Shown here: positions 4,801 through 54,073 of the stretch, one piece after another | Position numbering within the stretch: position 1 is the stretch's first letter | Layout of the letters: each line of letters begins with the position of its first letter | Assembly: GCF_000003815.2 (NCBI RefSeq) | Contig: NC_049990.1 | Span: 2,625,794-2,689,793, forward strand | Length of the DNA stretch: 64,000 bases | Reading direction: 5' to 3' | Source of the DNA: Branchiostoma floridae | Taxonomy: Eukaryota > Chordata > Leptocardii > Amphioxiformes > Branchiostomatidae | Notes under the pieces: model-generated | The model's database searches: none | What the model was told of the DNA's origin: nothing | What the model saw: the letters and a program-made list of their open reading frames with translations, nothing else | Program-made: the position numbers and the translations under genes

Positions 4801-7800
4801 TCTACTAATTAAACAATATAGAACATTAAAATTCTACTAATTAAACAATATAGGATAATAAAGTTCTACGATTCAAACAATATGGGATAATGATAAAACC
4901 TCCATACAATCAGGTGGGGCTAAACGCGCGACTGTCACTATCTTTTCTGATTGCAAAGCATATGATGTGTAGACCCTGGAGACAGTCTGGCTTCCTGGCT
5001 ACTACAACGTAATATGTAACGGAGGCTCGCATTGGTTAATGCGCGCCGTGAGCAGACTCAGTAGGAGATAATTACCAGTGTTGGGTGTAAACGTGCTGGA
5101 TCATAACGCGTGAAGCGGTCGGCCGACCTGGATGTTCTGTGACGTTCTCTTGGTGTAAATTCAGCAGCACCCCAGGATCGAGCGATATGGCGCGGGGAAA
5201 AACACAGGTGAAACGTTGGTGGACTCGGTTGTAGTTTTTTCGCTTGCCGGAATGAAAAAAAAATCGTTTTTCGATGACTTCGATCACTGCTTTGCCCATG
5301 ATATCATCACGTCTTGATGTGTTATGGCGTTATGCGTTTTCTCGATCTCTTGCTTTGATGACTTTGTGATGGCGCGCTGTGAATATATGTGCTTTTTAAA
5401 AGCAAACTACGCGATAGACTTCTAAGCACATAAGACTACAACTGGCTGTAGAAAATAGGACTTGGTAGGTTTGATTTAAGCGTATAAAGTCTCTCTTTCA
5501 TTCTGCGCAAAAAGAGGATGTCAAAACAATCGGTCTCTTAATTTGGCAGATTGAATATTTTGATAGCTTATGCGTATTATTTGAACAAACATTTTGCGTT
5601 CTATTAGGTGCTCTACCTGCCTTGACGAAATAGATCCTAACAATATAACTATGGATTTGAGAAGAAAAGATGGCATGCTGAGTGTTTTTTTATTTTTACA
5701 GACGCAAGATTTGAAGCCGATCGTCAGGCGGAAGATTCAGGTGTCGGCAAAATGGCGGAAGGTGGACCAGGACATCTGTATCATACAGTAAGTAGAACCG
5801 GTTTGCAACTTCTCAACAGCGGAGTTCAGTATGATTGTATTTTGCTTGTGTTTACTATTCCTAAATGTCTGCAAGATTCTGGCAAAATACTCAAAGGCAG
5901 CCTTGTCATGCAACGCTAGTCGCTATCATTTTGTCTTGTCGGATGGGAATAAGCCTATTTGATAGTTTGATTGTTAGGATGAGCGCGGATTTGCGATTTT
6001 CAACATCAGGCAAGGGTCCCTATAGCCTGGTAACCATACCATCGGGAACCCGCCGCTATCTCTACGGCGATGGGAGTAAGCCCACCCAACCAGTTCACTA
6101 GCGGGCGCCGGGGATTTTTTGTTACGCGATTGGTTTAAGTTGAACTTGGTGGCGATAGCTCGAAAAGCCAGCAAGGATACAATCTTCTAGAAGCTAAACA
6201 GATCCATACTTAACAAATGGTGCCAAAGAACAACACTCCTAAGCCGACTAGTTGAGAATGGTGACTAGGCACAGTGTGACTAGGCTAGGGCCCCCAATGC
6301 CGCGGGAGATAGGAACCTGGACTGCATGGGCCGTCAAGCAGCATGGGTAAAGAAGTAAAGTTTGACATTTCAGATAAAAGTGTCTTGAACAGCTCAGCTA
6401 CAATTTCTTCCTTTTCGATTTCTTATACTTATTTTGATGTATACATAGGCATAGCGATTCTCACCCAAATCAACTTGTTGTTAGGCATGATCTAGACACA
6501 GTTTTTCCGATATCTGCGAGCTGACAACCTCTCGCCGACAGCTTTCTTTCTTGGTTTGTTTTTGTACCACCTGTTGCTAGCTGTACCACCGGTTGTCAGT
6601 CATCAACAATAAAGTCGACTTGTTGACGATCATCTGCTCCCGTCTCCATGGTAACGTGGCTCTGATGTAAGAGACAGCCGTCCCCGTTGCTAGGCGACAA
6701 TCTGATGAAGAAGAGCTAATCCACAGACTTAATGAGGATGAGAATGGATCGTGATGACAGCTTTGTGTGGGCGTGATTAGGCTTTGACTAAATATATACT
6801 TGCTGTCATTGCAGATGCGCTCTGGCTATGACAGCTCTATTTTTGCGGGAGCGCTGATTCGAGATTGTCATCATGTGTATATTATGCCAGTAGAAGGTGT
6901 TTCTGACTTTTGTATTCTAAAAGAGACAATAAATCAAACACGGGGTCTTGATAACTCGCTGTCACGAGGTTTTTCGGCGGACGACGAGGCGCAGGAACTC
7001 CGCACGTCCATGCCGCTTCCCCTAAGAGTGGTATCTCACTGCACTGTAATTTTCGCCTATTTCTTTAATTATTTGTATACTGCGTAATACGAAAAGTATC
7101 ATTTAGAAGACAGCAAAATACACAAAACCTAAGAAAATTTATCTCTGAAATTGTCTTTTGTGATCTACGAGCGCCGTAGTGCCGCACCACTTACCCAAGT
7201 GCAGTGAGATACCACCTTAAGTGATTTAAAGAAGTAACACGCAAAATTTTGTTCTCTCTCTTTTCTAGCATCTTCCGTAACGGTGACAGCTTGACGCTCC
7301 CATTTAAGCCGTGTTTTAACAACACAATATGCAGAGGGTCTCAAAGGGGTTTTCCGTCTCTCTTCTTTACAGCATATTCCGTAACGGTGACATCTTGACG
7401 CCCCCATTCAAGCTACGTTTCAACAAAACAATACACAGAGGGCCTTAAAGGGGGTTTCTCTCTCTTGTTCCAGTATATTCCGTAACGGAGACAGCCTGAC
7501 GCCCCCGTCCAAGCTCCTGTTTAAGAAGGCGTGGCTGCAGAACAAGTGCACCTGGGACGTGCTGCTGGAGATGGTGCAGGAAAAGGTCTCACTCGACTCA
7601 GGAGCTATTAGGAAGTAAGCTATGATCTATAGATTTGTCCAGCAAGTCACTTAATCAATATATCAATATCTAAATCAATCAACTAAAATGCACATGGTCG
7701 GTTTAGGATGGTCAGGAGAAATCAGGAAGTAAGCTATCAATCTATCAATCGACCAATGAAACAATCAAGATATTGATCCATAGACTGATTAATCAATCGA

Positions 7801-52800: not shown

Positions 52801-54073
52801 GGCAAGATCTCCAGGCTGGAAATCGCGAGCCACATGAACTATGACGAGGTGTTGACGGCCTTGGATGTGGACGGTATAAATTACTGGAGTTTTAAAGTCC
52901 AGTTAAAGGACTGATGCTAGTTAAATATCTATTAATTTTACACACATGGTTCAAAATACATAATACATAATAGATTCTTCCATGCCTGTAGCCTTCAGCC
53001 CAACTTGCCAGCTGGTTCACTGTTTGTCCTGTCTACTCAGTCTTTATGTGGTCATATTTAATCTCCAAACAGATCTTACAATGGCATAAGATATAGTATC
53101 AAACTGGCCTAGGAGTGTAGTCAGCCAGATATACTATCTTATGCTACCGTAGGATCTGCTTGACAATTAGTCATATTGACTAAAAATATATTTTCCGACA
53201 ATTTTTTCTCATTCAGGTAACCAGGAACTGACGGCTGAAGAGCTGAATGTGCTGATGGGTGCCGCGACTGACCAGTTCATGGACGATCAGGACAACAACG
53301 ATGACGGGATGGTCGACTTCCAGGAGGCACATAGCCACCGTATGAACCTGGGAAGGATCTTCCACAGGCTTGACTTCGACAGTACGTTTATTTCGCAACA
53401 AACTGAGTGCTGAAGTTGAAAAGGCCCGCTCCCGAAGCATCGCTGAAAATGAATATAGTAAAACAATGTCTTTGGTGTGCAACTTTGCCACACAGGCCAA
53501 CAAAACACGACTCAGCTACTGTGGAAGAGCATTTGGTAGGGAAAGGGGGGTAGTCAAATAGTGTCCTCTCGATTCTATTGTTATTGTTATTGGGTGGGCC
53601 GACTACTCTCGCTTTGCAGTCGGGCGCATTAGGTGTGTAGAATCTTAAGGGTCTGTAATGACAGCGCCTAGTGACCTCAATACGACAGTAATTGCCACAG
53701 GTGTGGCCATAGGACTGTAGGCTTTGAACCATTTACACCAGGAATGGTCCCCACTCTATGCAAAAGTATACTTGACATTTAGCATGATATACAAGTACAC
53801 GTTATGTATTCTTTCTGTACTGTGGTCTTTCAACAACTTAACAGGACAACAACTATACACACAAACCATGCATAAGATTCACACATAATGGTGGGTTCTT
53901 TGATAAAAGTAGATGAATATTTCTGGTATTTTGTTGTTTGCTTTGAACTAATATTTGATGTTCCACTGCTTATAGATAGTAACTACCTAGAGAACGGAGA
54001 GGAGAGCGGGTTCCTTGTTGTGTGGGACGCCATCCTCCTGGCGGGCGGCGGAACCAACCCGAACGAAAACTAA
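49878..54073 (+). CDS. EF-hand gene C: secreted eight-EF-hand protein
   Basis: Coding exons 49878-49933, 50958-51061, 51487-51642, 52700-52873, 53217-53381 and 53976-54073, 250 residues. Signal peptide MAPFLLLFVALATAS and PMKRQ are identical to B and D. Loops: DADGDGLITYAE, DRDGDGFIYLPQ, NTDGDDHLTFRE, DFNGDGSLDVAE, DSNGDGKISRLE, DVDGNQELTAEE, DNNDDGMVDFQE, DFDNSNYLENGE, then the hydrophobic tail SGFLVVWDAILLAGGG. Exon 4 protein is identical to A and D. Exon 5 has a broken upstream duplicate at 52516 that would introduce a stop if used. Role unknown; secretion and calcium binding are inferred. Confidence 0.88.
50196..50418. mobile_element. Fold-back element, TIR CCTTAAG...CACTGCACTTGCG (gene C intron 2)
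   Basis: Left arm CTCACTGCACTTGCGTCAC and CACTGCGGGGTTCG pair with right arm CGAACCCCGCAGTGACGCA and GCGCAAGTGCAGTGTGATAC. The right end abuts a family 2 element. Confidence 0.82.
50417..50594. mobile_element. Fold-back element, family 2 copy 3
   Basis: Both ends are intact: GCTAAGGGCACAACCCGCCG and CAGTGGGTTGTGCCCTTAGC. The internal GCAATCTTTTGG and CCTGAACGTTTTCAGAAATA match the other copies. This is the best-defined member. Confidence 0.85.
52516..52583 (+). pseudogene. Truncated duplicate of gene C exon 5 (stop-containing)
   Basis: Keeps a good acceptor (TTTCTACACCTACAG) and the correct entry phase, reads DGSLDVADAYQMKYIYDT and then stops at TAG 52581-52583. No donor. The copied unit includes about 80 bases of intron 5' of the acceptor (ATCATC..CGGTAAATCCCAATTT). 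The real exon starts at 52700. Confidence 0.8.
53059..53169. mobile_element. Fold-back element, family 1 copy 4 (internally deleted)
   Basis: TAATCTCCAAACAGATCTTA on the left, TAGGATCTGCTTGACAATTA on the right. Middle shortened. Gene C intron 5; ends about 45 bases before the exon 6 acceptor. Confidence 0.8.
53575..53735 (-). mobile_element. SINE 3' half, minus strand, in gene C intron 6
   Basis: TGTTATTGTTATTGGGT (tail), CCGACTACTCTCGCTTTG, GTGACCTCAATACGACAGTA and GGCCATAGGACTGTAGG. Same intron and orientation as the fragment in gene B. Confidence 0.78.

Follow-up and report, generated by a model that had tools for sequence, protein, structure and literature searches.

Self-comparison of a 64,000-nucleotide stretch of Branchiostoma floridae DNA (the window) revealed that the gene DCX-EMAP is a genuine and unusually rich case of an already described class of amphioxus repeats, the 'mirages'. 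Twelve exon edges are copied in the window, ten in DCX-EMAP and two in EF-hand genes, and edge copies are also present in unrelated genes of the same genome. The decoy copies have decayed, and in an independent sample of the genome the duplications are placed at exon edges at chance level. A preference for splice junctions as a general rule is not supported by that sample. The edge copies are most probably amphioxus mirages in the form of ordinary short tandem duplications (about 60-430 bp) that chanced to include one splice site and were tolerated at the edges.

Host genes and duplicated exon edges

The host gene DCX-EMAP (1817-27354, + strand) was rebuilt from open frames, splice signals and exon phase. 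The model has 29 exons in a continuous frame without stop and with consistent phases, and its product of 1582 aa contains two DCX domains and two EMAP halves, with Pfam matches to DCX, HELP, Beta-prop_EML and Beta-prop_EML_2. The exon borders are those of this homology-supported model, and the same edges were used in the placement tests; an exon may be missing in the linker between DCX1 and DCX2, the start codon is a guess and exon 27 apparently terminates at a GC donor. Exon numbers are lower by two than those of the preliminary description. Four EF-hand paralogues lie downstream, and paralogue alignment placed the last exon of EF-hand gene 1 at 39093. An assignment of the 'gene A' of the preliminary description to DCX-EMAP (DCX domain at 1.8-2.1 kb) was dropped in favour of this last exon and its array at 39093.

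The copies were detected by self-alignment, an ungapped diagonal scan and per-site alignment. Self-comparison of the whole window gave 148 short-range direct repeats scoring at least 18 against 2-13 in five shuffles, and the DCX-EMAP region gave 76 ungapped pairs scoring at least 18 against 0 in each of three shuffles. All eleven sites claimed in the preliminary description were recovered by the three approaches, and its attribution of them to two unrelated genes was correct in substance, these being DCX-EMAP and the EF-hand paralogues. They also returned one site more; this twelfth site, the e2 donor (7614), was absent from the earlier list.

All sites lie on the + strand, and the alignments showed six acceptor and six donor edges to be copied. 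The e2 acceptor edge (7252..7527) has three copies with a period of about 104, the last of which, with the exon start at 7474, continues into the full exon. The donor edge of the same exon (7614; 7598..7805) has two copies at an offset of 114, with a score of 26, 66.7% over 96 columns and an ungapped 26-bp core within AT-rich sequence. Two copies at an offset of 133-146 are found at the e4 acceptor edge (8809; 8585..8874), and the e11 donor edge (13417; 13311..14596) carries four extra copies, all four with GT intact. Four decayed copies spaced about 80-115 bp apart precede the e13 acceptor edge (15466; 15054..15511), three of which have lost the AG, and the e15 donor edge (16621; 16584..16828) has a single copy 174 bp downstream in which the aligned GT is gone. 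At the e22 donor edge (21834; 21739..22283) a 114-bp copy, 94% identical, lies 431 bp downstream; all four of its exonic differences are synonymous, and a stretch with terminal inverted repeats separates edge and copy. On inspection of the alignment no obvious acceptor was seen that would make the e22 copy an alternative exon.

The e24 acceptor edge (23510; 23392..23546) has one weak copy upstream, a match of 40 bp at a 115-bp offset, and together with the e2 donor it is the weakest of the sites. This match begins 2-3 bp ahead of the edge and is therefore lost at margins of at least 5 bp. The e24 donor edge (23726; 23711..24047) has two copies among tetranucleotide repeats. At the e26 donor edge (25046; 24998..25340) three copies with periods of about 85-97 have (AAAC)n at the ends of the units, and this array has a single match in the assembly (513,431,437 bases, 431 contigs). 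In the EF-hand region, the acceptor of the terminal exon of gene 1 (39093; 38810..39155) is preceded by two copies with a period of about 130, and that of an exon in gene 3 (52700; 52431..52757) by one copy at an offset of 172-184.

At all 12 sites the unit spans the exon-intron boundary, as placed by the homology-supported model. The copies are contiguous or nearly so and head-to-tail at most sites; the exceptions are e22 and e15, which are non-contiguous repeats because unmatched sequence separates their copies. The genuine copy is the last in the array at 6 of 6 acceptor sites and the first at 6 of 6 donor sites, an order that follows because tandem duplication across one edge keeps the outer copy intact and moves the rest into the intron.

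Placement of the duplications relative to exon edges

In the placement test each duplication cluster was put at random in its gene, using margins of 2, 5 and 8 bp; minisatellite clusters were excluded in the runs without minisatellites. Without the minisatellite, 9-10 of the 13 clusters in DCX-EMAP fell at edges against 5.1-5.5 expected (P 0.008-0.027), and with it 9-10 of 14 against 5.7-6.1 (P 0.024-0.064), the e24 acceptor being counted only at the 2-bp margin. The EF-hand region gave 2 of 10 clusters against 2.1-2.3 expected without minisatellites and 2 of 13 against 3.4-3.7 with them. For both regions together, minisatellites excluded, 11-12 of 23 clusters were at edges against 7.2-7.9 (P 0.04-0.08).

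Exonic copies are easier to detect, and a simulation of this detectability gave an expected edge fraction of 0.36-0.43 in DCX-EMAP, so that 10 of 13 remains unusual there (P 0.003-0.015); detectability as the entire cause of the excess was rejected on this fraction. A scan with exons masked left few clusters (8, with the split 4602/4653 pair taken as one), of which 4 lay no more than 8 bp from an edge and 1 more belonged to an edge array, against about 2.5 expected at the simulated 0.31 per cluster (P 0.06-0.21). The share of bases covered by duplications was 15-16% within 30 bp of an edge and 14-24% in the intron stretch 60-400 bp away, which holds the decoys; beyond 400 bp it was 8.6%. Coverage thus has no peak at the edges, yet is higher there than in the deep intron. 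The position of the splice site within the unit was spread (KS against uniform P=0.41, from 12 fractions read by hand from the alignments).

Other loci were sampled because DCX-EMAP had been noticed for its looks. The sample comprised the EF-hand genes, nine CCT genes found by Pfam search, one 50-kb block and 19 of 30 myosin loci, 11 being left out for overlap. Exons were called with a finder trained on DCX-EMAP, supplemented by profile matches in the CCT and myosin loci. At a threshold of 12, 26 of 28 and 26 of 36 predicted edges were correct in cross-validation; for the EF-hand genes the finder was right in 31 of 32 predictions and recovered 31 of 46 edges. The finder misses edges, and therefore both observed and expected counts are lowered. 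For the nine CCT genes 54 of 60 profile matches were used, and 52 of these 54 had an exon call after additions.

Under a common filter (ungapped, 5-bp rule; low-complexity pairs dropped), which leaves the e13 and e24 acceptor clusters out of the edge count, DCX-EMAP had 8 of 13 clusters at edges against 4.3 expected (P 0.02). The corresponding counts were 2 of 12 against 2.7 in the EF-hand genes, 6 of 19 against 4.5 in the CCT genes (P 0.27), 1 of 4 against 0.7 in the 50-kb block and 1 of 7 against 1.5 in the myosin loci. One cctI cluster at a span border is included in these counts and was left out of an earlier CCT count. Outside DCX-EMAP 10 of 42 clusters touched an edge, with 9.5 +/- 2.5 expected (P 0.49), and all sets pooled, DCX-EMAP included, gave 18 of 55 against 13.8 (P 0.11). 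The preliminary description had held that tandem duplication favours exon edges and had proposed a permutation test. Within DCX-EMAP there is an excess at edges, 8-10 of 13-14 clusters against 4.3-6.1 expected giving nominal P values of 0.008-0.064; as a general rule the claim finds no support in the rest of the genome sampled.

Copies were carried by 20 of 435 annotated edges, namely 10 of 56 in DCX-EMAP, 2 of 39 in the EF-hand genes, 6 of 148 in the CCT genes, 1 of 20 in the block and 1 of 172 in the myosin loci. Three of the six CCT edges are on profile-matched exons (cctD, cctG 8070 and cctH) and three on exons called by the finder only (cctG 4474, which is weak, cctI 527 and cctI 4644). 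A clear array at a donor of CCT locus L013 (4589-5529) repeats a 67-bp unit over 941 bp, and every aligned unit consists of exon tail, donor and a short piece of intron; in a second pair of the same locus (380-537) the duplicated stretch is an acceptor plus some 10 bp of its exon. In locus L011 a donor is copied once (8050-8220), and a further cluster (3741-4531) is based on a weak predicted exon. An acceptor in locus L012 is matched by a pair that scores weakly (20; 7855-8068), and in locus L007 a mostly intronic array of four units reaches an acceptor and includes about 5 bp of exon. Edge duplications thus occur in several unrelated genes and DCX-EMAP is an outlier, in part because the gene was chosen.

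Fate of the decoy copies

The preliminary description had called the extra copies decayed yet often in possession of AG or GT, and this agrees with the alignments. The splice dinucleotide is kept in many, though not all, copies (19 of 23 aligned decoys, against 16.1 +/- 2.1 predicted from identity). In 21 of the 23 the identity to the true edge is 68-90%, and several have indels or lost signals; in EF-hand gene 1 the copy closest to the exon reaches 99%.

The 19 intact decoys scored on average 3.88 bits against 3.47 for the true sites, nine being stronger and four weaker. The strength change of decoy donors, -0.68 bits against a simulated -0.82 to -1.78 (P 0.14-0.46), looks neutral and fits drift. 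Decoy acceptors changed by +0.99 against a simulated -0.73 to -1.67 (P at most 0.0005; 11 decoys, 8 intact, 6 sites), in a simulation with an approximate weight matrix that models substitutions only and no indels, which bears on the pyrimidine tracts. Compared with the true sites, these acceptors show no loss of strength and are, if anything, stronger. A simulation with all divergence on the decoy, in which strength appeared retained (P=0.001), was set aside; in the one-branch version donors show no deviation and acceptors still deviate.

Changes private to a single decoy are distributed 9/16/25 over the codon positions, and 27 of 48 alter the amino acid. Over all pairs of genuine copy and decoy the differences are 28/27/93, with 79 synonymous and 61 not, in counts that repeat a true copy compared with several decoys. 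Silent (intronic) divergence minus twice the divergence at positions 1 and 2 is about 0.10 (bootstrap 0.01-0.20). The third-position differences lie above a model of neutral decoys and constrained exons. One explanation of this surplus is that copies may start with allelic differences; another is a higher mutability of GC-rich third positions (GC3 0.776).

Origin of the copies and relation to known repeats

The copies probably arose mutationally, by slippage or unequal exchange, against a background in which the introns of this genome hold many short tandem duplications. A duplication across a single exon edge would be survivable because the outermost copy remains joined to the intact exon, with the array extending into the intron. 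The remaining copies would become decoys, mostly drifting and presumably ignored by mRNA splicing. Random duplication filtered by the tolerance of the gene covers most of the pattern; it leaves aside the high edge count of DCX-EMAP, the strength of the decoy acceptors and the surplus of differences at third codon positions.

A mutational process aimed at splice junctions or transcribed exon edges (e.g. R-loops or junction repair) would suit the 9-10 of 13 DCX-EMAP clusters at edges, and also the five listed microsatellites of this gene (period at most 6), all within 150 bp of an edge. It is nevertheless improbable, as the 42 clusters outside DCX-EMAP show no excess, the distance from breakpoint to splice site is not constant, acceptors and donors are copied equally (6 and 6) and the gene was selected for its striking look. 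Unequal exchange between strongly diverged haplotypes, by which copies would be born with allelic and mostly silent differences, together with a real hot spot at the exon edges of DCX-EMAP, is suggested by the 28/27/93 differences and the silent surplus of about 0.10; this combination is unlikely.

The maintenance of decoy or backup splice sites by selection, which the preliminary description had offered as a possible cause, left no sign at the donors, which are consistent with neutrality, and the retention of AG or GT in 19 decoys does not differ significantly from prediction. The higher mean strength of intact decoys and the acceptors exceeding the substitution-only simulation speak for it; the acceptor result comes from six sites under the limits of that simulation, and e13 has lost the AG in three of four copies, leaving just 8 of 11 acceptor decoys intact. 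Such selection is highly improbable. Hardly any probability attaches to the reading that some copies are assembly artefacts, in which two haplotypes of a highly heterozygous animal were joined in tandem. The e22 copy with its purely synonymous exonic differences and the nearest copy in EF-hand gene 1 would suit it, and the literature reports a heterozygosity of about 3% in B. floridae (3-4% for amphioxus; PMC12862219), a globin mirage mis-assembled in the draft genome (PMC3087553) and PGBD5 copy numbers that vary among assemblies (PMC3902484). Against it, the divergence of the other 21 of 23 decoys exceeds the allelic 3-4%, and the PGBD5 arrays were backed by original Sanger and new Illumina data (PMC3902484).

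The reading of the copies as tolerated random duplications is in accordance with the published mirages, to which the preliminary description had likened them; the same anatomy is reported in PMC3087553 and PMC3902484. The former describes mirages in the globin genes BflGb6 and BflGb9, with haplotypes of 6 and 3 units, citing Adh3 and two further papers for similar loci; the latter describes PGBD5 splice sites with 60- and 108-bp arrays, citing Adh and troponin C. As in these genes (Adh3, the globins, troponin C and PGBD5), the units cross exon-intron borders at either exon end, AG or GT is present in many but not all copies, and one copy alone belongs to the exon. Papers on retinol dehydrogenase and presenilin are cited as similar. 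The published units measure 10 to 160 bp. Different here are the ten edges in one 29-exon gene, the age and decay of many copies and the non-contiguity of some. A 59-bp minisatellite at 17.4-17.9 kb of the window likewise forms head-to-tail repeats in a DCX-EMAP intron and, unlike the edge arrays, is without a splice site. The available part of PMC4284660 contains neither the term 'tandem duplication' nor 'minisatellite'. A literature search that reached few subscription journals found no genome-wide placement test for such repeats in print.

The present data extend a little-studied repeat class by a gene in which it is very abundant and supply a placement test, which suggests that no junction-specific mechanism is needed and that frequent random duplication with tolerance at the edges is sufficient. 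Tandem genomic duplication as a mechanism of intron gain, as treated in PMC3443670, likewise involves intragenic tandem duplication with splice signals, whereas the extra copies here sit within existing introns of the gene model. PMC3087553 proposes mirages as a route to new introns, and the present counts are relevant to this proposal because edges with copies, its raw material, are no rarity (20 of 435). The DCX-EMAP decoys nonetheless gather amino-acid-altering changes.

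Duplication density in DCX-EMAP and a repeat array at an exon donor of a CCT gene

Duplication clusters were counted using an identical filter. The modelled DCX-EMAP gene carried 13 duplication clusters in 25.5 kb, while the myosin loci of the same genome (19 analysed, from L020-L049) carried 7 in 62 kb; genes seem to differ strongly in how densely they carry duplications. At a CCT gene elsewhere in the genome (locus L013, contig G000:C19), an array of about 14 copies of a 67-bp unit occupied 941 bp at an exon donor (L013:4589-5529, local coordinates). Those of its units that were aligned each had an AG-bounded stretch of 51 nt (17 codons) with a donor at its end, successive stretches being spaced by only 16 nt.

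Inverted-repeat stretch, donor and minisatellite within DCX-EMAP

A stretch with terminal inverted repeats (21871-22050) was flanked by both donor-edge copies of exon 22, that is, duplicates of the exon 3' end with adjoining intron, and self-comparison of the window gave a related copy in inverted orientation at 35678-35838. Intron 16 contained a 59-bp minisatellite (17373-17852) having no contact with an exon edge. Exon 27 apparently ends in a GC donor in place of GT (25893; CAACG|gcacgt).

EF-hand paralogues and other repeats of the window

Downstream, four EF-hand gene paralogues were arranged in tandem (33617-60790) with matching exon order, and three of the four had in common a signal-peptide-like first exon (MAPFLLLFVALATASP). 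Between DCX-EMAP and these genes, a unit of about 290 bp was repeated 3.7 times with about 89% matches (32292-33429). Two large arrays of 16-bp units, about 7 kb apart (47732-48114 and 54844-55567), were composed of similar units of the GTACGAGCTTACAATG / CGAGTTTACACTGGTA type. An inverted repeat of 205 bp, 94% identical, was located at 48385-49241 and is possibly a fold-back element.
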